Of a stretch of 36,575 bases of DNA, positions 17,106-27,755 are shown piece after piece. The stretch's first letter is position 1. Every line of letters begins with the position of its first letter. The notes under the pieces are model-generated. The model did no database searches and had not been told where the DNA came from. It saw nothing but the letters and a program-made list of their open reading frames with translations. Where the stretch lies: positions 1 through 36,575 of the forward strand of contig CAIQRY010000051.1 of assembly GCA_903874345.1 (NCBI GenBank), in the 5' to 3' direction. Position numbers and translations under genes: made by a program. This DNA is from an uncultured bacterium. GTDB lineage: Bacteria; Patescibacteriota; Patescibacteriia; Patescibacteriales; UBA12465.

Positions 17106-19097
17106 ATGTGGCGCGACCCTAAAAACAATTCTCGGCCGAGTAGTTTTAAGATTAATAATAATCGCTGGCGTTTAGTCGTGGCGTTTATTTTTTTATTAGC
17201 CGGCGCTCTCTTATATAAATTATTTAATGTTCAGATTCAAGAGTGTGATTTGTATACGGCGATGGCGGCCAGTCAGCAGGATGTTAATCGGGCCCTCTTA
17301 CCCACGCGCGGTAAGATATATGTAACCGAAGAAGTGAATGGTCAAGAGAAACTTTACCCCTTGGCGACTAATAAGGAGATGGCGACTATCTTTGCTGTCC
17401 CTAAAGACATAACTAATTCCACGCTTCTGGCGGAGGAATTTTTTAAATTTTTTGATCTGCCGACTTTAACCGCTTCTTCCAGTGCCTCTACCACCCTTAC
17501 CTCTTCGACGCACGATCAGCTTATCGCCGCTTATTTAAAACGCTTTACTAAGCCTAATAGTTTATATCAGCCTTTGGATAAGCGAATTGACGACGATACT
17601 TTACTTAAATTTTATGCCACTCTCGCTACGGCTTTAGCGAATGCGACTTCAACTAGTCCTATTGTACCGATTACCACGACGACCGCGCCTGTTTTAAAAC
17701 CAGTGACGGCTGATGAGCTCATGGTGTTAAATGAAAGAGTGGTTTATAAAAATGATACATCGACGCCGCTCGTAATTCCGGGTTTGGGTTATAATTTTAG
17801 TGATTACCGTTATTATCCGGATAATGAAATCGGTTCCCATCTTTTGGGTTTTGTGAGCTATCCGGACGCCGCCAGTTCGGGGGTTGGCAAATATGGTTTG
17901 GAGGAATTTTTTAACGATGAGTTGTCCGGCCGCGCCGGCTCAGTTAATTCCGCCAAAAGCGCTCAGGGTCGGACGATTATTGTGAATGACCGTAAATATC
18001 TGAAGCCCGAAGATGGCAGCGATTTGATTTTAACAATTGATCGTAATGTCGAATATGTCGCCTGTACGAAATTACAGGAAGCGGTAAAAAAACACGGCGC
18101 GGATGGCGGCTCCGTTATTGTTATGAACCCGGCGACCGGAGCGATTATTGCTATGTGTTCGGTACCTGATTTTAACCCGAATAATTATGCGGATGTGAAA
18201 GATATTCGTGTTTTTAATAATCCGGCTATTTTTGATCAATATGAACCTGGCTCAGTATATAAAACGATTACTATGTCCGCGGCCATTGATCAAGGGAAAG
18301 TCACGCCGGCCACGACTTATCATGACGCGGGCGAAATTATGATTCCGGGTTGGCCCAAACCAATTAAAAATTCCGACTTTGAAACTAAGGGCGGGCATGG
18401 CGTGGTTGATATGAATACGGTTTTGGAATATTCCCTTAACACCGGTGCTATTTTTGCCGAACGCCAAATCGGTCCGAAAGTTTTTTCCGATTACGTAAAA
18501 GGCTATGGCTTTGGTGAAAAAACCGGAATTGAACTTGGTTCCGAAAGCCCGGGCAATATTGGCAGCTTGCTGACCGATAAAGTAAAAGAAATCGAAGCAG
18601 CCACCGCTTCCTTCGGGCAAGGGATTGCCGTTACGCCGCTGCAGATGATTATGCCTTATCAGGCCATTGCTAATCATGGAATATTAATGACTCCTTACGC
18701 CGTCAAAGCAATTTTGCGTCCGGGTGGCATAAGAGAGAATATCGAACCGAAGCAGATTCGTCGCGTTGTTAAAGAGTCGACCGCTAATACAGTTAGCGCG
18801 ATGTTGGTTAATGTCGTGGAAAGCGGTCATGCCAAAGGAGCACGTATCCCTGGCTATTTCATTGGTGGCAAGACCGGAACCGCCCAGGTCGCCGAACACG
18901 GCCTTTATAGTGCGACTAATTATATTCATAGTTTTATTGGCGTCATGCCCATTGACCACCCCGCTTTTGTGATGTTAACTAAGATTGATAACCCGCGGGA
19001 TGCAAAATTTGCGGAATCAACAGCCATCCCACTTTGGCACGATATCGCCGAGTTTATGTTAAAATATTATCAGATTCCATCGACGCGTCCGAAATAA
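17106..19097 (+). CDS. ftsI: Class B penicillin-binding protein (FtsI/PBP2-like)
   Basis: This is a peptidoglycan transpeptidase of the septal type. The 663-residue protein has a cytoplasmic tail, a membrane anchor (about 23-42) and the dimerisation-domain start RALLPTRGKIYV. A Ser/Thr-rich insert lies about 120-215. The pedestal block YPDNEIGSHLLGFV and the block GLEEFFNDELSGRAG follow. The transpeptidase domain has S383-V-Y-K386 as nucleophile motif, S443-L-N445 and K589-T-G591 (GGKTGTAQVAEHG). All active-site motifs are intact and there is no PASTA domain. It lies fourth in the cluster. The murF start follows the PBP stop by 8 bases. Naming it ftsI rests on context; a PBP2 function cannot be excluded. 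Confidence 0.93.
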   Translation: MWRDPKNNSRPSSFKINNNRWRLVVAFIFLLAGALLYKLFNVQIQECDLYTAMAASQQDVNRALLPTRGKIYVTEEVNGQEKLYPLATNKEMATIFAVPKDITNSTLLAEEFFKFFDLPTLTASSSASTTLTSSTHDQLIAAYLKRFTKPNSLYQPLDKRIDDDTLLKFYATLATALANATSTSPIVPITTTTAPVLKPVTADELMVLNERVVYKNDTSTPLVIPGLGYNFSDYRYYPDNEIGSHLLGFVSYPDAASSGVGKYGLEEFFNDELSGRAGSVNSAKSAQGRTIIVNDRKYLKPEDGSDLILTIDRNVEYVACTKLQEAVKKHGADGGSVIVMNPATGAIIAMCSVPDFNPNNYADVKDIRVFNNPAIFDQYEPGSVYKTITMSAAIDQGKVTPATTYHDAGEIMIPGWPKPIKNSDFETKGGHGVVDMNTVLEYSLNTGAIFAERQIGPKVFSDYVKGYGFGEKTGIELGSESPGNIGSLLTDKVKEIEAATASFGQGIAVTPLQMIMPYQAIANHGILMTPYAVKAILRPGGIRENIEPKQIRRVVKESTANTVSAMLVNVVESGHAKGARIPGYFIGGKTGTAQVAEHGLYSATNYIHSFIGVMPIDHPAFVMLTKIDNPRDAKFAESTAIPLWHDIAEFMLKYYQIPSTRPK

Positions 19098-19105
19098 AGA
19101 GATTT

Positions 19106-20401
19106 ATGAAGAAGATTTTGCGTTTAAAATTGAAGATTTTAGCCCGGCTGATTTTGAAAAAATATAAGCCGGTGGTTGTCGGGATTACCGGTTCAATTGG
19201 CAAGACAAGCGCCAAAGAAGCGGTTTTTACGGTTTTGCATAATCACTTTTCGGTCCGCATGAGTTTGAAAAATTATAATAATGAAATTGGACTGCCACTC
19301 ACGATTATTGGAATTGAGTCGGCCGGCCGTGATTTATTCGCTTGGCTTAAAGTTTTTACGGCCGCTTGGCGACTTTTGCTTTTTAAGGATAAGAATTATC
19401 CGAAAATTTTAATTTTAGAAATGGGCGTTGATCGTCCGGGCGATATGGATTATTTAACGGCGATTGCACCGGTCTCTGTCGGCTTAGTCACGGGCGTTAG
19501 TTATGCGCATTTAGAATATTTTGGCTCGATAAATAATATTAAAAAAGAAAAGCAGGTTTTAATTGAAAAGATTGTTAATCCGACTAAAGGCTTGGCGATT
19601 TTAAATTATGATAACGAACTCACGCGCGAGATGGCCGACGTTAGCCGGACGCGGATAATGACTTATGGCTTGAAGCCCGGGGCTAATTTGCAGGCGCAGG
19701 ATATCGTTTATAATCTTACCAAAAGCAATTATGAACTGTCCGGTATTAATTTTAAATTGAATTATAATGGCGCCATTGTGCCAGTTCTAATGCCTAATGT
19801 CATGAGTGCGACCGCGCTTTATGCGGCGCTTGCTGGCGCGGCGCTTGGTTTATATTTTGAGATGAATTTGGTCGAGATTGCGCAAGCCTTGCATGATTTT
19901 GTTTTGCCGCCTGGTCGCATGCATCTTTTACCTGGCGTGAAACATACTTTTTTAATCGATGATACTTATAATTCTTCGCCGGAAGCGGCTCTGGCCGCCA
20001 TTGAAATTTTAAGCCAGATGAAGATTGACGAGGCTTCAAAAAAATATGCGGTCTTAGGCGATATGTTAGAGATTGGTTCTTATACCGAAGAAGGACACCG
20101 CGCCGTGGGTGCAGCTGTGGCCAAACAAGGCTTGAATTATTTAGTCGCTGTCGGCGAACGGGCGCGCGGTTTTATTCATGGCGCCAAAGAGGCGGGTCTG
20201 GATGACAATTATTTGTTTCATTTTGATCGCCCGGAAGAGGCTGGATTATTTCTTCAGGATCGGATTAAGGCCGGCGACGTCTTATTAATTAAAGGTTCGC
20301 AAGGGGCACGAATGGAAAAAATAGTTAAAGAACTCATGGCCGAACCAGAGCGGGCGTCGGAATTATTAGTGCGCCAAGGTCAAGAGTGGGAAAATAAATA
20401 A
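19106..20401 (+). CDS. murF: UDP-N-acetylmuramoyl-tripeptide--D-Ala-D-Ala ligase-like protein
   Basis: MurF adds D-Ala-D-Ala to the UDP-MurNAc-tripeptide in the cytoplasm. The ATG at 19106 (MKKILRLKLKILARLILKKY) is preferred over an in-frame ATG at 19034 inside the PBP gene. The 431-residue product has the Mur-ligase P-loop VVVGITGSIGKTSAKEAV (about 24-41), LEMGVDRPGDMDYL (about 106-119) and VGLVTGVSYAHLEYFGSINNIKKEK (about 126-150). It also has LIDDTYNSSPEAALAAIEIL (about 290-309), which is characteristic of MurF, and AVLGDMLEIGSYTEEGHR. It lacks the long N-terminal substrate domain of some MurF proteins, beginning almost directly at the ATPase domain. That shortening makes the exact substrate slightly less certain. 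It is the last gene of the cluster. Confidence 0.9.
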   Translation: MKKILRLKLKILARLILKKYKPVVVGITGSIGKTSAKEAVFTVLHNHFSVRMSLKNYNNEIGLPLTIIGIESAGRDLFAWLKVFTAAWRLLLFKDKNYPKILILEMGVDRPGDMDYLTAIAPVSVGLVTGVSYAHLEYFGSINNIKKEKQVLIEKIVNPTKGLAILNYDNELTREMADVSRTRIMTYGLKPGANLQAQDIVYNLTKSNYELSGINFKLNYNGAIVPVLMPNVMSATALYAALAGAALGLYFEMNLVEIAQALHDFVLPPGRMHLLPGVKHTFLIDDTYNSSPEAALAAIEILSQMKIDEASKKYAVLGDMLEIGSYTEEGHRAVGAAVAKQGLNYLVAVGERARGFIHGAKEAGLDDNYLFHFDRPEEAGLFLQDRIKAGDVLLIKGSQGARMEKIVKELMAEPERASELLVRQGQEWENK

Positions 20402-20408
20402 AAATTTC

Positions 20409-20432
20409 GTCACCCCGTGCTTGACACGGGGT
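20409..20432. repeat. REP-like palindrome, copy 1
   Basis: GTC precedes the arms ACCCCGTG (20412-20419) and CACGGGGT (20425-20432) around loop CTTGA. A second copy at 35133-35157 keeps the flank, loop and arm core while its inner two pairs change together. A T-rich tail follows here, so it may also terminate murF. Confidence 0.7.
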
Positions 20433-20445
20433 TTTATTAAAATAA

Positions 20446-20472
20446 AAAAGACCTCTTAGGCGGAGGTCTTTT
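20446..20472. terminator. Bidirectional terminator after murF
   Basis: AAAAGACCTC (20446-20455) pairs with GAGGTCTTTT (20463-20472). It separates convergent murF and the minus-strand unknown gene at 20492. Confidence 0.85.
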
Positions 20473-20491
20473 GATTTTAATAAACAGTTGA

Positions 20492-21439
20492 TTATTTCGG
20501 TTCCTCTTCCGGCTCCAGGAAAATTATTTCCGTGTACTTCTTTACGGGAATGACCTGGTTGCTTCTTCTTTCGTCGGTTGTGCGGTAAACACGGGCGTCT
20601 TCGTTTTCGGTTTTGACGTAGATTTCTTCGTAGTAGGGTTCGTTGGAATAGTGCTGCTCCGGAAATTGGAAAGTTTCACCAGGCTCGAGTTCGAGAAAAC
20701 AATATTTGTTTTCGTGATGCTTAGGGAAAACAGCCGGGAAGTAATGACGTAGCGTTTTTAAGTGATAAGGATTTCGTGCCGAAAAGGTATCCGTCGCGTC
20801 TTCTTCGTAGGAGAAGCCCATTTTTATTATTGTTTCGGTTGTTGTTCGGGGATCGCGCAAGAAACGAATAGGCCAGGCCAGTTCTTTGAGAATCAAGGTT
20901 TGACTGGTATAAGCCGGCGAATAGACTTGAGCCTCCGGGTACCAGATGATTTTGTAGATGTCCCCGACTTTTAAATTCGGTTGTTTTTCCGGAACGACGG
21001 CGATGAAAATCAGGGAATTATCATTGTTTAATGCCCATGCAAGTTGCGTCGCGTTATGTGGCAATAACCCCGGGAAGAAAGTGCCCGGAATTTGGTTCAT
21101 GATAATAAGGTCAGCCTCGGAAATCGCGGCTTCCAATAAGGCAGGGAGGGCTTCCTTAAGCGGTCCCTCGGCTTCCTGATAAAGTAAGTTTAACTTTTCC
21201 AGGTCGCTCCCTTCGCGACGGAAAATGAGCTTGGTAGTTCTCGGTGTTTCTTTAATCACCTCGAGATTCATTCCTTGCTGCTCACTGATTTGGCGTAAAC
21301 TTTTTAGGTCCTGACCGGATAAATCATAATCAACGGTTGCAAATGTTACGACATCGTCTTGATTATTGGAGACGTAACGGATCCATTTCCGGCTATTTCG
21401 GCCGCGGAATAAATGGACGAGTCTGATGAAGCTGTACAT
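20492..21439 (-). CDS. Protein of unknown function, second gene of a minus-strand pair
   Basis: I do not recognise this 315-residue protein. It has no signal peptide or clear membrane helix. A Rossmann-like core is suggested by alternating strands and helices: VVTFATVDYDLSGQDLKSL (about 30-48), AISEADLIIMNQIPGTFF (about 105-122) and SLIFIAVVPEKQ (about 139-150). The C-terminal half is rich in aromatic and acidic residues, with MGFSYEEDATDTFSARNPYHL (about 207-227), and ends in acidic FLEPEEEPK. A divergent methyltransferase- or nucleotide-binding-like fold is possible but lacks a clean motif. It begins two bases after the 114-residue gene and is surely cotranscribed with it. Both lie next to the retron. 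Confidence 0.7.
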   Translation of the reverse strand: MYSFIRLVHLFRGRNSRKWIRYVSNNQDDVVTFATVDYDLSGQDLKSLRQISEQQGMNLEVIKETPRTTKLIFRREGSDLEKLNLLYQEAEGPLKEALPALLEAAISEADLIIMNQIPGTFFPGLLPHNATQLAWALNNDNSLIFIAVVPEKQPNLKVGDIYKIIWYPEAQVYSPAYTSQTLILKELAWPIRFLRDPRTTTETIIKMGFSYEEDATDTFSARNPYHLKTLRHYFPAVFPKHHENKYCFLELEPGETFQFPEQHYSNEPYYEEIYVKTENEDARVYRTTDERRSNQVIPVKKYTEIIFLEPEEEPK

Positions 21440-21441
21440 GG

Positions 21442-21786
21442 CTATTCGTATTTTTGTTGAAACTCACCGTCGCTTTCCTGGAAATTTTCCGGGAAATTTG
21501 CTTTTAACTTTTCCGGGTCAGTACCGGCGGCTAAAAAGACTATTTCCCTGATTTCGTCAGATCTGGTGTCCGGCTTAATAATTGTAATAGCGAAACCTTT
21601 TTTTACACCAATTTCGCGGATATTGTGGATTACTACGGCCCCCAAAACTTGCAAGGGACGAATGTGTACTTCATCTTCGCTCATCGGGCAAAGACAATAA
21701 TCAGTTGGCTTTAAGCCCTGTTTGGCTAGAAACGATTTGATCGAATCTAAAAACCAGTTGTTTTCTTTTTCCATACGGCATCTCAT
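21442..21786 (-). CDS. Small protein of unknown function, first gene of a minus-strand pair
   Basis: I do not recognise this product of up to 114 residues. The start is uncertain: an ATG at 21786 gives MRCRM, and an ATG four codons on (21774) gives MEKENNWFLDSIKSFL, which looks more natural. The chain starts with a helix (DSIKSFLAKQGL) and then holds a beta-rich segment with ADxYCLCPMSEDEVHIRPLQVLGAVVIHNI-type pattern (about 30-56). Two cysteines occur close together as CLC. It ends in a charged tail. The next gene follows after two bases. The retron terminator lies upstream, so this pair is probably transcribed on its own. Confidence 0.65.
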   Translation of the reverse strand: MRCRMEKENNWFLDSIKSFLAKQGLKPTDYCLCPMSEDEVHIRPLQVLGAVVIHNIREIGVKKGFAITIIKPDTRSDEIREIVFLAAGTDPEKLKANFPENFQESDGEFQQKYE

Positions 21787-21828
21787 TTGGGTTATTAATG
21801 AATCTGGTTAGTTGTTAAAGAATAAAAT

Positions 21829-21857
21829 AATTTAACACGGTTTTTAAAAATAAGCAA
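21829..21857 (-). promoter_or_regulatory. Possible promoter of the unknown gene pair
   Basis: On the minus strand TTGCTT (21857-21852), a 17-base spacer and TAAATT (21834-21829). It is a weak match but in the right place, between the retron terminator and the gene at 21786. Confidence 0.35.
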
Positions 21858-21861
21858 GTAA

Positions 21862-21891
21862 TAAAAAACCCGTACTTTTGGTACGGGGTTT
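21862..21891 (-). terminator. Retron terminator
   Basis: On the minus strand the hairpin arms AAACC-CCGTAC and GTACGGGTTT (plus positions 21881-21891 and 21866-21875) are followed by a T-run (TTTTTTATT). It lies two bases after the reverse transcriptase stop. Confidence 0.8.
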
Positions 21892-21892
21892 A

Positions 21893-23062
21893 TTATGATG
21901 TCGGTCTGCTGTCTAAGGATTTAAGATATTTTAGATACGGTTTTAAAACAGCCGGTGGAATATCTCCAATGATTCGTCCCTTGGGATATCCTTCGGGTTT
22001 AGGGTAAACTCCTTTTAAAAAAGCAATATATCCTGCTACCCTATTATCCTTGTCCGCGCTAGGATCAATTGTCGCTTGATGAATTAGGGAACGGATCGCT
22101 AAGATTTTTTTCTTAGGAACAATTACTTTGTTGTTTATCCGGCCACCGCGCGAATTGAATCTTTTAGCTACTCTCAGTCCGGTTATCAGCGGATCGATTT
22201 GTCGACGTTTAGATTGAATGGTTTTTTCACGATTAACGGTAAATGTACCGCTAGCCTCAATAGTCGAAATTAGTTTTCCTAGCATGTCCCGAGTAATTTC
22301 CTTTTTAGTGGAAATGACGATGTCGTCAGCGTAGATTGATAAGGCATGATCATAAGCCTCTTCATTCAACTGTCGGGAAATATTTTCCGGAATTTTGAGA
22401 TGAGAAAGTACCAGATTCAACAAGAACGGTGAAGTTGGCGCTCCTTGAGGCAGAGCCCCTTGATAAGTTGTTAGGGTTACCAAATGTTCAATAAAGCGTG
22501 CTGTAATGTCCCACGGAAAGTCGGAGTCGAGATTATTGATAATCAAGCGTCGAAACCAACGGACGCGCCGGGACGGAAAGATGGGATGTAAATGGTATAT
22601 TTTTTTAAACCATTTCCTGGGTTTAAGCTTCCGCTCTCGGTATTGGTCGGCATAGTCGGCAATTTCCTGAAAAAGATATTCTTGGAAAATGCTGCGGATA
22701 TTTTCCGCCTTGACCGAAGGGAAAGCATCTTTTAAATCCAAACGAGTGACATGTTTCCAGCTTTTGTCTTTATGGCTATTAGCGTTACTGACGATCGATC
22801 GCCCGGGCAAGAAGCCGTGCATCGTTAAGGAGATTTTGCTTTTAAAGAGATAGAAAAAATTTCTTAAAAGCAATCTTTGCAATTTTTTCAGATCGGTCGG
22901 AGGTACATATAGTTTCCTCAGACTGCCGTTTTTTTTAGGAATGGTCTTCAGCTTATAGTCGGCGCATTGATTTAAAGCTTTGATTATTAGTTCCGCCTTG
23001 GTCTTCTGGCCGAGCATTCCCTGAAGTAATTTACGTGGTCCAGGACTGAATTGTGCTTCCAT
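21893..23062 (-). CDS. Retron-type reverse transcriptase
   Basis: This 389-residue enzyme would prime on and copy its own upstream RNA. Visible motifs in order: IPKKNGSLRKLYVPP (41-55, RT1); GFLPGRSIVSNANSH (83-97) with the retron-specific NAxxH at 93-97; RLDLKDAFPSV (107-117), catalytic D109; ALPQGAPTSPFLLNLVL (203-219); SIYADDIVIS (242-251) with catalytic D246 and D247; TVNREKT (275-281); and LITGLRV (292-298), the counterpart of the retron VTG motif. The thumb follows (NKVIVPKKKILAIRSLIHQA) and ends in GYIAFLKGVYP. LPQGAPTSP argues against diversity-generating and group II intron enzymes. An insertion of about 50 basic and aromatic residues (130-185) separates motifs 3 and 4. No effector domain is fused. 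The candidate msr-msd RNA and promoter lie directly upstream, a terminator directly downstream. Confidence 0.93.
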   Translation of the reverse strand: MEAQFSPGPRKLLQGMLGQKTKAELIIKALNQCADYKLKTIPKKNGSLRKLYVPPTDLKKLQRLLLRNFFYLFKSKISLTMHGFLPGRSIVSNANSHKDKSWKHVTRLDLKDAFPSVKAENIRSIFQEYLFQEIADYADQYRERKLKPRKWFKKIYHLHPIFPSRRVRWFRRLIINNLDSDFPWDITARFIEHLVTLTTYQGALPQGAPTSPFLLNLVLSHLKIPENISRQLNEEAYDHALSIYADDIVISTKKEITRDMLGKLISTIEASGTFTVNREKTIQSKRRQIDPLITGLRVAKRFNSRGGRINNKVIVPKKKILAIRSLIHQATIDPSADKDNRVAGYIAFLKGVYPKPEGYPKGRIIGDIPPAVLKPYLKYLKSLDSRPTS

Positions 23063-23088
23063 TCTTTTTGTTTTTAAGGTTCGAAATA

Positions 23089-23330
23089 GGGGTAGCTTGA
23101 GCCGAACTACGCCGGCTCAAAGCTAGACTTTCCTTTATTAACGTGCCTATTGAACCGCCCGCTTTTAAAGTCGTTCAGAACAACACCGTTAATTTACGTG
23201 ATAATGTCGGCCGAAAAAAGCCAATAAACATGATTACATTACCCAACGGCCAGCAACTGACCGCCGTTTCAGGCCAGGGGATAAAGCTCCCCAGGGCGTT
23301 TTTTTATAAGTCTTGCCAGCTTACCCTTAA
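23089..23330 (-). ncRNA. Candidate retron msr-msd RNA
   Basis: Read on the minus strand, the RNA starts about 23330, just after a promoter. Near its 5' end AAGCT (23322-23318), a 4-base bulge and AGACTT (23313-23308) are complementary to AAGTCT (23130-23125) and AGCTT (23124-23120) at the 3' end: an 11-bp a1/a2-like duplex. GGGT plus AGCT near the 5' end can also pair with AGCTACCC (23097-23090). Two GC-rich hairpins follow the 5' arm: GGGGA/TCCCC (23292-23277) with a TTT-containing loop, and AACGGC/GCCGTT (23268-23245) extended by CAG/CTG. The remaining ~110 bases could form the msd stem through ATTAACG/CGTTAAT. A hairpin TTGAGCCG/CGGCTCAA (23120-23097) separates it from the RT gene. The exact ends and the branching G are not determined. 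Confidence 0.7.
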
Positions 23331-23335
23331 TCTTT

Positions 23336-23363
23336 ATATTAAAGGTTTTTAATGTTTTGTCAA
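23336..23363 (-). promoter_or_regulatory. Retron promoter
   Basis: On the minus strand a perfect TTGACA (23363-23358), a 16-base spacer and TAATAT (23341-23336). Transcription would begin about 23329, exactly at the proposed 5' arm of the retron RNA. Confidence 0.75.
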
Positions 23364-23394
23364 ATAAAAAATCCCGCGTTTGGTTGCGGGATTT
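23364..23394 (-). terminator. Terminator of a short minus-strand unit
   Basis: On the minus strand AAATCCCGC (23394-23386) pairs perfectly with GCGGGATTT (23377-23369), followed by TTTATTT. The T-run exists only in the minus direction, so it ends a transcript arriving from 23400-23490, not the retron. Confidence 0.8.
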
Positions 23395-23411
23395 CATCTG
23401 TCTGTTTGAGT

Positions 23412-23444
23412 TTATAAAGGGATATCGTCAGGGATTTTACCCAT
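23412..23444 (-). CDS. Ten-codon ORF in a small transcription unit next to the retron
   Basis: The first ATG after the minus-strand promoter at 23490-23519 opens the peptide MGKIPDDIPL and a TAA stop, with a perfect terminator 18 bases on. The acidic DDIPL end resembles the C-terminal tip (DDxIPF) by which bacterial single-stranded-DNA-binding protein recruits partners. Upstream in frame, FIQVLKQKFRI follows a stop, so it may equally be a gene remnant or just a small RNA of about 120 bases. Translation is unproven. Confidence 0.3.
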   Translation of the reverse strand: MGKIPDDIPL

Positions 23445-23489
23445 GATTCTGAATTTTTGTTTAAGAACTTGAATGAATTACCTAGAATT

Positions 23490-23519
23490 ATTATAGTTAT
23501 GAATATTTGTTATTATCAA
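23490..23519 (-). promoter_or_regulatory. Promoter of the short unit upstream of the retron
   Basis: On the minus strand TTGATA (23519-23514), an 18-base spacer and a perfect TATAAT (23495-23490). A second candidate, TTGACA (23538-23533) with 17 bases to TAATAA (23515-23510), overlaps it. Both face away from the rfbD promoter. Confidence 0.6.
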
Positions 23520-23531
23520 TTTAACCGATGA

Positions 23532-23560
23532 TTGTCAATTTTCTCTTTTCCCATTATACT
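23532..23560 (+). promoter_or_regulatory. Promoter of rfbD-rfbA
   Basis: TTGTCA at 23532-23537, a 17-base spacer and TATACT at 23555-23560. The ATG at 23570 follows by only 9 bases, so the mRNA is probably leaderless or nearly so. Confidence 0.7.
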
Positions 23561-23569
23561 TATAGGCGT

Positions 23570-24427
23570 ATGACTATTCTCATTCTTGGCGCGCAAGGCA
23601 ACCTCGGAACGCAGCTCGCGAAGCTCTTGGCCGCCGAATATAATGTGGTTGCTTGGGACAGAGACGATTTGGACGTCTTGGATTTTAAATTACTGGCGGC
23701 TAAGATTAAGGAACTTTCTCCGGAACTCGTAATTAACGCCGCGGCCTATAATAATGTTGATAAATGCGAGGATAAGACAGAATATGAAATGGCTTTGAAA
23801 TTGAACCGTGATTTGCCCGCTAAGCTCGCCGACCTTTGTCTCGCGCTGGGCGCGGTCTTGATTCATTATTCTTCCGACTACGTTTTTAATGGCACTCCGG
23901 AGAAAATGGAGTTTTTAGAAGATGATACTCCGAATCCGATTAATAAATACGGCGAGAGCAAGTTTTTAGGGGAACGGGAAGTTTTACGTCGTTTTGAAGA
24001 AGGCTTATCTGGTTATTTAATTCGAACCTCGAAACTGTTCGGTCCCCGAGGCACGAGTCCGCAGGCGAAACCCAGCTTTTTTGACATCATGCTTGATTTG
24101 GCGCAGAATAAAAAAGAATTAATCGTTGTCAACGAAGAATTAAGCTGCTTTACTTATACGCCGGACTTGGCCGAAGCTTCGAAACGGCTCTGGGAACTGG
24201 AAGTGCCCTTTGGTACTTATCATTTAGTAAATGAAGGCGCTTGTACCTGGCATGATGGTGTTCAAGAATTATTTCGTTTAAAAAAGATGAAGGTCGTCAT
24301 GCGGGCCGTCCGTAGTGAGAATTTAGCCCGTGCCGCCAGGCGTCCAAAGTTTTCCGTTTTGAAAAATACCAAGGTGCGGAAACTTCGACCCTGGAAGCTC
24401 GCCTTAAAAGAATATTTAGAAAATTAA
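23570..24427 (+). CDS. rfbD: dTDP-4-dehydrorhamnose reductase
   Basis: RmlD makes the last step to dTDP-L-rhamnose, reducing dTDP-4-dehydrorhamnose with NAD(P)H. The ATG at 23570 gives MTILILGAQGNLGTQL. The in-frame ATG at 23528 lies upstream of the promoter -35 box and is rejected. The 285-residue protein has the nucleotide-binding GAQGNLG (7-13), LVINAAAYNNVDKCED (about 60-75), IHYSSDYVFNGT (about 102-113) and the catalytic YGESK (about 131-135). FGPRGTS and a C-terminal substrate domain follow. It is slightly divergent, so a related sugar reductase is possible, but rfbA directly downstream supports the rhamnose pathway. rfbB and rfbC are not in the window. Confidence 0.88.
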   Translation: MTILILGAQGNLGTQLAKLLAAEYNVVAWDRDDLDVLDFKLLAAKIKELSPELVINAAAYNNVDKCEDKTEYEMALKLNRDLPAKLADLCLALGAVLIHYSSDYVFNGTPEKMEFLEDDTPNPINKYGESKFLGEREVLRRFEEGLSGYLIRTSKLFGPRGTSPQAKPSFFDIMLDLAQNKKELIVVNEELSCFTYTPDLAEASKRLWELEVPFGTYHLVNEGACTWHDGVQELFRLKKMKVVMRAVRSENLARAARRPKFSVLKNTKVRKLRPWKLALKEYLEN

Positions 24428-24458
24428 AAATAAAGATTTAAGTTTAAAAGTCTAATTT

Positions 24459-25184
24459 ATGCGTGGTATTATTTTATCTGGCGGTTCTGGTACTCGGCTC
24501 CGCCCCTTAACCAAAATCACTTCGAAACAACTACTCCCGGTTTATAACCGGCCGATGATTTATTATCCCTTAAATACCCTGATTAAAGCGGGTATTAAGG
24601 AGATTTTGATTATTGTTGCGCCGGAGAGAGCTGGCGATTATCTTAATTTGCTCGGTTCGGGCAAGGAATTCGGCGTGAAGTTTACTTATGAAATTCAGGA
24701 TAAGCCAGAGGGTCTGTCACAAGCCTTTATTATCGCCGAGAAATTTATTGATTCTGATCACGTCGCTATGATTTTAGGCGATAATATTTTTGAAGATGAT
24801 TTAGCTGATGAAATCAAAGGCTTTAAGAGCGGCGCGAAAGTGTTTGCTAAAAAAGTATCTGACCCAGAACGCTTCGGCGTTGTAAAATTTAATAATCAAA
24901 TGAAGGCGGAAAAAATAGTGGAGAAACCGAAAGAATTTTTAAGCGATTATGCCGTGACCGGTTTATACGTTTACGACTCGCGTGTAGTGGAAATTGCTAA
25001 AGGCTTAAAACCGAGCGTGCGGGGCGAACTCGAAATTGCTGATATTAATAATTGGTATTTAGAGAAGGGGGAATTGGAAGTCGCGCTTATTAATGGCGAG
25101 TGGGAAGATGCCGGTACCTTTGATAGCCTGCTCCGAGTTCAAAATTTAGCTAAGGAAAAATTGGCCGATAAGATGGTCATTTAA
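24459..25184 (+). CDS. rfbA: Glucose-1-phosphate thymidylyltransferase (short form)
   Basis: RmlA joins dTTP and glucose-1-phosphate to dTDP-glucose, the first step to dTDP-rhamnose. The 241-residue protein opens with MRGIILSGGSGTRLRPLT, the nucleotidyltransferase loop. It continues with KQLLPVYNRPMIYYPL (about 24-39), QDKPEGLSQAFIIAE (about 81-95), ILGDNIFEDDL (about 105-115, metal-binding D), GVVKF and EKPKEFLSDYAVTGLYVYD. EWEDAGTFDSLLRVQ stands near the end. The usual length is about 290. The C-terminal helices used for tetramer and allosteric contacts are missing, as in other short forms. It is the second gene after rfbD. Confidence 0.95.
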   Translation: MRGIILSGGSGTRLRPLTKITSKQLLPVYNRPMIYYPLNTLIKAGIKEILIIVAPERAGDYLNLLGSGKEFGVKFTYEIQDKPEGLSQAFIIAEKFIDSDHVAMILGDNIFEDDLADEIKGFKSGAKVFAKKVSDPERFGVVKFNNQMKAEKIVEKPKEFLSDYAVTGLYVYDSRVVEIAKGLKPSVRGELEIADINNWYLEKGELEVALINGEWEDAGTFDSLLRVQNLAKEKLADKMVI

Positions 25185-25192
25185 AAAAAAAG

Positions 25193-25221
25193 AAGGTCAC
25201 GGCTAATTGTAGCGTGACCTT
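25193..25221. terminator. Terminator between rfbA and a convergent small gene
   Basis: AAGGTCAC (25193-25200) pairs with GTGACCTT (25214-25221), extended inside by GCTA/TAGC. The minus direction has a long T-run and the plus direction a weaker pyrimidine tail, so it works best for the minus-strand gene. Confidence 0.75.
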
Positions 25222-25230
25222 TCCTCTTAT

Positions 25231-25587
25231 TCAGGTGTCTGGCGGGAATTTTTTCGTGATTTTAAATTCATTTTCCCGTCCGATTTCTGGTAGATTGACT
25301 TTGACTTTAAAGCCCAAGCCACCGGAAGGCGACCCGGCCCTCGGATTCAATTTAATGAAAATCAATTCCGGCAGAGATAATCTTGCCTGTTTGCGGAAGA
25401 AGGCCTCATTTGGGGATTGGGCGGCAATCTTCGTCAATTTTTCCTTGATTTCACTAATCAGTTGTTCCTCTTTCTTGTCGTTAACTCTTTGTTCTCGGAT
25501 GTGATTATTAGTCTTATCCCTAAGAACAATTGTTTTCGATCGCGGCCCGGGTCGCATGGTCTCTTCTTTCGTCTGCGATTTAGTCAT
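25231..25587 (-). CDS. Small basic protein of unknown function
   Basis: I do not recognise this 118-residue protein. The N-terminal part is strongly charged (RDKTNNHIREQRVNDKKEEQ, about 23-42) and leads into a likely helix (LISEIKEKLTKIAAQ). The second half (LPELIFIKLNPRAGSPSGGLGFKVKVNLPEI) looks like a short beta-sheet domain. An internal ATG at codon 11 (MRPGPRSK) is an alternative start. A dedicated terminator directly after its stop supports it as a real gene. It sits alone, antisense to the sugar genes around it, and nothing in it suggests an enzyme. Confidence 0.6.
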   Translation of the reverse strand: MTKSQTKEETMRPGPRSKTIVLRDKTNNHIREQRVNDKKEEQLISEIKEKLTKIAAQSPNEAFFRKQARLSLPELIFIKLNPRAGSPSGGLGFKVKVNLPEIGRENEFKITKKFPPDT

Positions 25588-25693
25588 GGTCTGGTTTATT
25601 TGGGTTTAAGGGTTTTAAGAATGAACGATTTTAGTCTAACAGAGAAAATATAAATCCATCTTGATTATTTGTCAATCCTTTTTTGCTTATTTT

Positions 25694-26665
25694 ATGAAAC
25701 TAGCTGTCGGTTTTATCACGTATAATGAAACGAGCGCTAAATATCTAGCGGATTTTTTACCGAGCCTGTTCAAAGCTTTAGAATTTTTGTCGTCCGTTGA
25801 TTATAAGGTTTTAGCTTGGGATAATAGTGAGTCAGAAAACAACGCTAACCGTTTAGCGGTTGAGTCTTTTAATCAAGAATTAGCTCTAAAGAACGCTAAT
25901 TTAATTAAGTACGCGACACGCGGCCTTAATTTAGGTTTTGCTCGCGCTTATAATATATTAATGGCGCAGGCACAAGTCGTCGGGGCTGAATATTTTTTAA
26001 TCATTAATCCGGATACGCTTCTTGAGCCCGCGGCTATTTCTGAATTAGTTCGCGCCTTAGATCAAAATTCGGCTCTGGTCTCGGTTAGTCCGAAAATTTT
26101 ACGTTGGGATTTTGCGGCGCGACAAAAAACTAAAATTATTGATTCTTGCGGCCTAATTTTAAAATCCGGTTTGCGTTTTAAAGATTTAGGGCAGGGAGAA
26201 GCTGACCATAGTCAATTAGACCAGGCGCCGATTCTCGGACCATCGGGAGCAGCTGGCCTTTTCCGTTTGAGTGCCTTGGGGGTAGCGCCCTATTTTGACG
26301 AACGGTTTTTTATGTACAAGGAGGATTGCGATTTAGCTTATCGTTTGTCTCTCGCCGGCCAAGTCTCCCGCCTAGTTCCAACCGCTATAATTTATCATGA
26401 CCGAACCGCGACCACTTCCGGCGCCGGCTTATGGCGCGATTTGCGGAGTCGTGGCCAAAAAAGCCGTCTAATTCGTGCTTGGTCATTTCGGAACCAGCAC
26501 TTTATTTTTGTAAAGTATTGGAAAAATCAAAATTTTGTCAATAAACTAGAGATTGTTTTTCGAGCTTTGTCTATGCTCATTTTTTCTCTTATATTAGAAC
26601 AATTTCTCTTAAAACAGTACTCCTATATCCTAAACCCTAAAAAAGTATTGACTAATGTAAAATAA
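25694..26665 (+). CDS. Family 2 glycosyltransferase (rhamnosyltransferase-like)
   Basis: This GT-A enzyme probably adds a sugar from a nucleotide donor to an envelope glycan. The ATG at 25694 (MKLAVGFITYNETS) is the family start. The in-frame ATG at 25661 adds an unlikely leader. The 323-residue protein shows LAVGFITYNE, NLGFARAYNILM (about 81-92), FLIINPDTLLEPAAI (about 103-117) where NPD stands for the DxD site, LGPSGAAGLFRL (about 180-191) and DERFFMYKEDCDLAYRL (about 200-216) with the ED catalytic pair. A hydrophobic C-terminal segment (about 289-307) may attach it to the membrane. The nearby rfbD-rfbA would supply dTDP-rhamnose, which makes rhamnose a plausible donor (inference). Confidence 0.88.
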   Translation: MKLAVGFITYNETSAKYLADFLPSLFKALEFLSSVDYKVLAWDNSESENNANRLAVESFNQELALKNANLIKYATRGLNLGFARAYNILMAQAQVVGAEYFLIINPDTLLEPAAISELVRALDQNSALVSVSPKILRWDFAARQKTKIIDSCGLILKSGLRFKDLGQGEADHSQLDQAPILGPSGAAGLFRLSALGVAPYFDERFFMYKEDCDLAYRLSLAGQVSRLVPTAIIYHDRTATTSGAGLWRDLRSRGQKSRLIRAWSFRNQHFIFVKYWKNQNFVNKLEIVFRALSMLIFSLILEQFLLKQYSYILNPKKVLTNVK

Positions 26666-26714
26666 TATGATAAGTTTGTAGGTAATTAAAGAGTTATTAG
26701 CTTTATTTTTTTAT

Positions 26715-27755
26715 ATGGAAAACTTATTAGAGAAAATGATTCAAGATGAAAAGTCCGAAGAGTTAGCCCGCTTGGACGCGATTAATATCGTCGACCAACT
26801 CTTTGCCGAATTATTAGACCGGGAAAAAGACATTTTATCCCGTCGTTTTGGCTTAAAAGGAGACAAGGGTGAAACCCTGGAAAAAATCGGCAAGCTCCAT
26901 AAGCTCACTAGAGAACGGGTGCGCCAAATTGAAGCGGCGAGCATCAAAAAAATTAAGAAATTAGAAAATTTAGAAAGCTATATTGCGACCTTGAAAAGTA
27001 CGGTTCAGAATTTATTATCTGAACACGGCGGTTTAATTCGTCGCGATTATTTATTGGATATTTTGACGGTTATGGCGCTTGAAATCAATAACGAAGCTAA
27101 TGTCGCCGATCCGAATTATGAAAAAAATCGCCAAACTTATCGTAACCATTTTAACTTCCTGATCTCTAAATTAATGGGTGATGATTTGGAATTAGTCGAA
27201 GAAGGGGATCAATTCAACCCGTCCTTCAAGATGAAGAACGAGCCGGTTGATCACTTAAAAGAATTAGCCGATGATTTACTCAAGAAAGTTGAGACCTTAA
27301 AGAAGACTTTTACGACCGAAGAACTTTTAGACTTACTCAAGAAACTAGACGCTTATAATAAACATGCTGTTAAATTAACTTTTAAAGATTCGGCGGATAT
27401 TACCCCAATTTTTAAGAGCCAACTTTTTCCGGATAAGGCTGAACTTATCAATAATAATAAGATTTTATATTCCCTCATGCAGGCGGTTAAGAATCTGGAA
27501 CAGAATAAATATGGTGAATGGGGTTTAGCGGACTGGGAAGAAGTTAAGCCGAAGACCGTGAATGATAAAATCTACTTAATTTTGAAGCACGAAGGCAAGC
27601 CGCTCCACTTTACTGATATCGCTAAAAAAATCAATGAAATGAAATTCGATAAGAAGGTGGCTAATGCCGCAACCGTCCATAACGAACTCATTTTGGATGA
27701 CCGTTATATCCTGGTTGGCCGGGGTACTTATGGCCTTAAAGAATGGGACAAATAA
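26715..27755 (+). CDS. Sigma-region-4-like / HARE-HTH fusion regulator
   Basis: The 346-residue protein begins with a sigma70 region 4 look-alike: LLDREKDILSRRFGLKGDKG (about 33-52) followed by the helix-turn-helix ETLEKIGKLHKLTRERVRQIE (about 53-73). It has no region 2, so it cannot melt a -10 box as a normal sigma would. A long helical middle follows. The last 70 residues (LKHEGKPLHFTDIAKKINEM...VHNELILDDRYILVGRGTYGL) form a HARE-HTH domain of the kind found in the RNA polymerase delta subunit (RpoE). It is probably a polymerase-associated transcription factor. Known families support both ends; the combined role is inferred. It is a single gene with its own terminator. Confidence 0.85.
   Translation: MENLLEKMIQDEKSEELARLDAINIVDQLFAELLDREKDILSRRFGLKGDKGETLEKIGKLHKLTRERVRQIEAASIKKIKKLENLESYIATLKSTVQNLLSEHGGLIRRDYLLDILTVMALEINNEANVADPNYEKNRQTYRNHFNFLISKLMGDDLELVEEGDQFNPSFKMKNEPVDHLKELADDLLKKVETLKKTFTTEELLDLLKKLDAYNKHAVKLTFKDSADITPIFKSQLFPDKAELINNNKILYSLMQAVKNLEQNKYGEWGLADWEEVKPKTVNDKIYLILKHEGKPLHFTDIAKKINEMKFDKKVANAATVHNELILDDRYILVGRGTYGLKEWDK

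Follow-up and report, generated by a model that had tools for sequence, protein, structure and literature searches.

The window, i.e., the whole stretch of 36,575 nucleotides that was analysed, stems from a Patescibacteria genome of 0.84 Mb. On its minus strand (23363-21893) it harbors a compact cassette that consists of a promoter, a structured RNA of about 240 nt and the gene of a reverse transcriptase (RT); all features are compiled in Table 1. The cassette is located within an insert of about 3.1 kb at the murF-rmlD junction (20402-23560). In same-genus genomes rmlD directly follows murF, at a distance of no more than about 15 bases in four cases, and the insert is absent. Because the two genes stand side by side in these genomes, the cassette appears to be an acquired accessory element. 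In two relatives (L174 and L180) the junction is occupied by other single genes; it is therefore a place of gene turnover. A distant relative of the window retron adjoins murF and faces it, with ftsI beyond (L053:394-2587), and the loci L040 and L082 are both found near infB.

Two orphan genes share the insert with the cassette. Their proteins of 114 and 315 aa match no family, and the larger one lacks a homologue in the other genomes among 363 of the class as well as any phage match; its structural model (pLDDT 38) provides no usable fold. Both are possibly cargo or accessory genes. A comparison of the retron loci revealed no common accessory or effector gene, and only housekeeping genes are shared besides the RT.

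Table 1. Features of the cassette and of the surrounding insert in the window
Feature	Position	Strand	Basis
Two orphan genes (114 and 315 aa) sharing the insert	20492..21786	-	Absent from the relatives' murF-rmlD junction
Intrinsic terminator 3' of the RT gene	21869..21887	-	Separates the RT from the next same-strand genes
Retron-type RT, 389 aa, NAxxH/YADD/ITG, extra segment between motifs A and B	21893..23062	-	
msr-msd-like structured RNA, whole element	23090..23330	-	Folding z -3.8; layout conserved in homologous loci
Outer 3' arm a2: AGC UACCC	23090..23097	-	Minimum-energy fold; conserved plan
Hairpin III, 7-8 bp, between b2 and a2	23097..23120	-	z -4.7
Inner 3' arm b2: AAGUCU AGCUU	23120..23130	-	Fold, swap test, unguided alignment
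Variable region with two long stems, candidate msd template	23125..23243	-	Minimum-energy fold
Hairpin II, 10-bp stem and 3-nt loop	23244..23266	-	Covariation; model R1; z -3.5
Hairpin I	23273..23297	-	Local fold -13.3 kcal/mol, z -2.2
Inner 5' arm b1: AAGCU, GGCA bulge, AGACUU	23308..23322	-	Inner helix family-wide
Outer 5' arm a1: GGGUA, bulged A, GCU	23318..23326	-	Minimum-energy fold; equivalent arms in relatives
Candidate priming (branch) guanosine in AAGC	23320	-	(A/G)GC in 9 compared loci; AGC in known retrons
Sigma-70-type promoter TTGACA-N16-TAATAT	23336..23363	-	Consensus scan

The preliminary description had deduced a transcript start near the 5' arm from a -10 box at 23336-23341. 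These coordinates are right, and a TTGACA box at a spacer of 16 completes the promoter (TTGACA 23363-23358, TAATAT 23341-23336; 10 of 12 consensus matches). The position of the -10 box sets the predicted transcription start at about 23330-23327, and a terminator-like hairpin is present upstream of the TTGACA box. A single transcript from this promoter would carry both the RNA and the RT message, given that no terminator was found between them; none was found inside the structured RNA either. Comparable promoters with spacers of 16-20 were read by eye in L046 and in each of the ten loci used to test end-to-end pairing, the promoter ends and the inner arms having been chosen by eye in most relatives.

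Retron RTs are characterized by NAxxH in region X, YxDD and VTG or ITG in motif 7, and they are preceded by an RNA with complementary ends. The window RT exhibits NANSH in region X, YADD and, in motif 7, ITGL; its upstream RNA has complementary ends and two msr hairpins (I and II). The protein matches Pfam RVT_1 with 5e-21, and its best matches in PADLOC and NCBIfam are retron RTs. Ec86 is its best PDB match by sequence, and a 15-member profile of its relatives retrieves Ec86 with 2e-33, whereas the best-matching RT of a group II intron reaches 1.7e-14. With the AlphaFold model (pLDDT 91, pTM 0.88) as the Foldseek query, the first 15 PDB matches are all retron RTs. A conspicuous feature is the spacing between motifs A and B, which amounts to 85-96 residues in the window subgroup compared with 50-56 in several relatives. 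This part of the window RT (residues 119-203 approximately) contains a shared (R/K)xVxWFR motif and is modelled as helices.

None of the described retron types (PADLOC I-XIII) fits the window RT, and a known effector is absent next to its gene. RTs that fit a PADLOC type reach 387-528 bits and have one model clearly ahead of the others, whereas the window RT obtains about 145.5 bits with several types close to each other (146, 136, 130, 124 and others); because these types score alike, no type was assigned. The best model is that of type III-A (145 bits), but good III-A RTs reach 387-466 bits with a clear lead. The score for the St85 retron RT of NCBIfam (NF038233) is 136 bits and hence falls short of the curated threshold (235). 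A tree of 122 RTs places the window RT in a group of 11 (support 0.96) that is nested in a group of 15 (0.93) and then 30 (0.99), nearly all from Patescibacteria; the sample originates mostly from Patescibacteria searches and is devoid of labelled reference retrons, so the tree neither dates nor ranks the lineage. RT relatives at E <= 0.001 were detected in 16 of 380 genomes of the phylum and are mostly distant, and the window RT was found in none of the other same-genus genomes. A search of viral contigs with the window RT alone retrieved no relative, searches with RT profiles yielded 17 loci each, none of them close, and the exact hairpin pattern did not occur in these contigs.

A sister group (L047, L041/L012, L055, L048, L051, L053 and L082) exhibits a motif C of the form YxDN or YxDG, in which the second aspartate is replaced, and in all seven members the NAxxH of region X is replaced by H(A/V)xxH. 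The RNA hairpin is best conserved in this group with its altered RT motifs. These changes could mean altered or absent DNA synthesis. The genome of the window encodes a second RT (L002; G000:C13:11055-11642), which lies outside the retron class and has its best PADLOC matches among a generic RT model, Cas1-RT and DRT models.

The interpretation of the upstream region as msr-msd had been tied to the folding of positions 23330-23063, and this RNA indeed adopts a stable predicted fold that joins both ends (-87.6 kcal/mol, z -3.2). Restricted to 23330-23090, the fold has -86.8 kcal/mol and none of 200 shuffles is as good. The originally proposed span of 23120-23330 had the right start, but its end has to be moved to 23090, since the outer helix extends the element. 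This helix is formed by GGGTA (23326-23322) and GCT (23320-23318) with AGC (23097-23095) and TACCC (23094-23090), which bears out the second pairing of GGGT/ACCC plus AGCT suggested at the outset. The bulged duplex that had been put forward first is likewise present in the sequence, with AAGCT (23322-23318), the four-base GGCA bulge (23317-23314) and AGACTT (23313-23308) opposite AAGTCT (23130-23125) and AGCTT (23124-23120), and its pairing is conserved in related loci. AGCU flanks hairpin III on both sides, and the 5' AGCU (23321-23318) therefore has two possible partners (23124-23121 or 23097-23094). The proposed competition of two closings holds for these four bases only; otherwise the outer and inner closings are predicted to largely coexist around hairpin III (23120-23097). 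In the window sequence alone, the end-to-end duplex is near chance (p 0.06), as is the longest perfect helix between the RNA ends (p 0.31), and the closing duplex owes its significance to its conservation in homologous loci.

The msr of retrons comprises one to three hairpins with stems of 7-10 bp and loops of 3-10 nt, the msd is a single hairpin of 10-50 bp, and the guanosine used for priming is part of an AGC at the closing stem's inner end. In the window, AAGC is found at 23322-23319, and the fold predicts two stems, not one, between hairpin II and b2. This variable region is the most divergent part between relatives. A comparison with Rfam matched no family at gathering score, in agreement with the initial impression of an RNA unlike that of any retron; its parts, however, follow the retron plan.

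The structural conservation of the RNA is evident from the related loci, which belong to Patescibacteria and one Omnitrophota. Upstream of their RTs they share a promoter, an outer arm, an inner arm with (A/G)GC, a hairpin with 10 bp and a 3-nt loop, and the second inner arm, often followed by another hairpin, then the outer arm and the RT. A hairpin at the position of hairpin III was read by eye in L045, L040, L046, L047 and L082. Hairpin II shows two-sided changes in six of its ten pairs, 97% of cells are paired and none of 500 shuffles reaches the covariation score; the sequence boundaries around the hairpin had been set by eye, a choice that favors pairing without producing the covariation. 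The covariance model R1, which represents this one hairpin from 11 loci, scores 28-42 bits in its source loci and 38 bits in L038, a locus outside the training set, compared with at most 21 bits for everything else in 656 kb. Across 380 whole genomes it retrieved the window, G213 and one chance hairpin of 27 bits. The latter, in G436, was rejected as a chance inverted repeat with no RT beside it. Above 28 bits R1 is specific for retron loci.

The inner helix is paired to 92% within loci vs 69% with partners swapped between loci (0 of 5000), the arms for this test being hand-picked, and (A/G)GC occupies the corresponding position of the inner 5' arm in all nine loci compared. An unguided MAFFT alignment with RNAalifold recovered the same helix in the global mode, the only one of three modes to do so, and a second unguided alignment of four loci revealed two-sided changes in three of its eight pairs. 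Swap test and unguided alignments replaced the hand-cut block alignment A4, which was dropped after MAFFT had misaligned the window and L040. End-to-end pairing from the promoter-defined start is significant over ten loci (combined p 4e-5; p 0.005 by a cruder measure). The conservation of the pairing and of the internal hairpin by compensatory changes, together with the retron-type RT that follows and the paired ends, supports the msr-msd reading of the preliminary description, for which covariation among homologues had been named as a check. Broader searches around G213 and G582 added no further loci. Upstream of another retron-like RT, L035:1160-1191 contains the perfect hairpin CTGACCGTCACTAAGTGACGGTCAG, a weak R1 match of 20.6 bits that is preceded by a second similar hairpin about 100 bases before. 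The hairpin GGCTGTCAGAATTCTGACGGTC (L018:1183-1215; R1 19 bits) is located upstream of a more distant RT and may extend the RNA family.

The closest solved RT by sequence belongs to Retron Eco1 (Ec86, type II-A), which resembles the window in the order of promoter, RNA and RT and in the paired RNA ends. Structural alignment of the two RTs results in an identity of about 20%. The Ec86 RT binds to an 8-bp msr stem capped by a 3-base loop, and retron RTs in general bind such loops on stems of 8-9 bp, with a priming G that is usually found in AGC (PMC6868368). The Ec86 stem resembles hairpin II, which is probably the RT-binding stem of the msr by analogy. In contrast to Ec86, the window has no Ec86-like effector alongside, its RNA is without Rfam match and motifs A and B are farther apart in its RT. 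Retrons without an obvious effector gene are on record (PMC8867640); like the window, they consist of RNA plus RT in unrelated neighbourhoods, but the window represents a separate Patescibacteria RT lineage with its own conserved hairpin.

We consider it highly probable that the cassette represents a hitherto undescribed retron lineage that makes msDNA, probably for phage defence, and lacks a recognisable effector. According to the proposed mechanism, whose first step is supported by conservation, the RNA 5' end would pair with the region just before the RT start. The RT would recognise the covarying 3-nt-loop hairpin II in analogy to Ec86 and Ec73, and a guanosine within the inner 5' arm, probably G23320, would provide the 2'-OH for priming. 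Copying of the RNA 3' part back towards hairpin II would then generate branched RNA-DNA whose DNA portion measures roughly 120-150 nt. Its most likely use, judged from retrons in general, would be phage defence, which is a guess because no effector gene is common to the loci. The effector may be absent, encoded elsewhere or among the two adjacent orphan genes.

It is unlikely that the cassette is a DRT-type system, whose RT uses the adjacent RNA as template or scaffold for other DNA (repeat or homopolymer) without a 2'-5' branch. The lack of an effector gene nearby, a weak Drt3a match of the window RT (E 0.0017) and the appearance of DRT9 and DRT2 structures lower in the fold list point in this direction, but the agreement with retron RTs is far closer in sequence, profile and fold, NAxxH and ITG are present, and paired ends, a 3-nt-loop hairpin and (A/G)GC in the 5' arm correspond to the RNA plan of retrons. 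A well-structured RNA that immediately precedes the RT gene on its strand might also be merely a leader (attenuator) that regulates this gene and is not a template. We regard this as very improbable: from the transcript start onward the RNA folds into a structure whose two ends are joined, the RT lineage is accompanied by the covarying hairpin in distant genomes and a terminator inside the RNA was not found.

Diversity-generating retroelements and group II intron RTs are known from Patescibacteria, and the window RT has a weak group II maturase match (60 bits vs a cut-off of 300). Its retron-specific motifs nevertheless argue against both, no direct repeat of at least 40 nt was found within 19000-27000 and a match to group II intron RNA is missing, which leaves an assignment to either class hardly credible. 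The sporadic occurrence of RT relatives within the phylum and their absence from other same-genus genomes would suit a decaying, non-functional retron remnant. Such a state is quite implausible in view of the open reading frame of 389 aa with its catalytic YADD, the near-consensus promoter and the intact, strongly folding RNA.

A search of open-access papers, with most subscription journals outside its range, found no study of retrons in Patescibacteria. The retron reading of the cassette provides a covariation-supported RNA model for a Patescibacteria retron lineage, and its compact RNA-RT pair is a testable candidate for DNA production. It is conceivable, albeit rather doubtful, that ultrasmall bacteria harbor a retron lineage without effector, in which RT, RNA and cDNA themselves are the active system. 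The cassette offers a natural test of retron function without a recognisable effector, and the sister group with its altered catalytic motif raises the question whether retron RTs are able to work with such a motif or have abandoned normal DNA synthesis.
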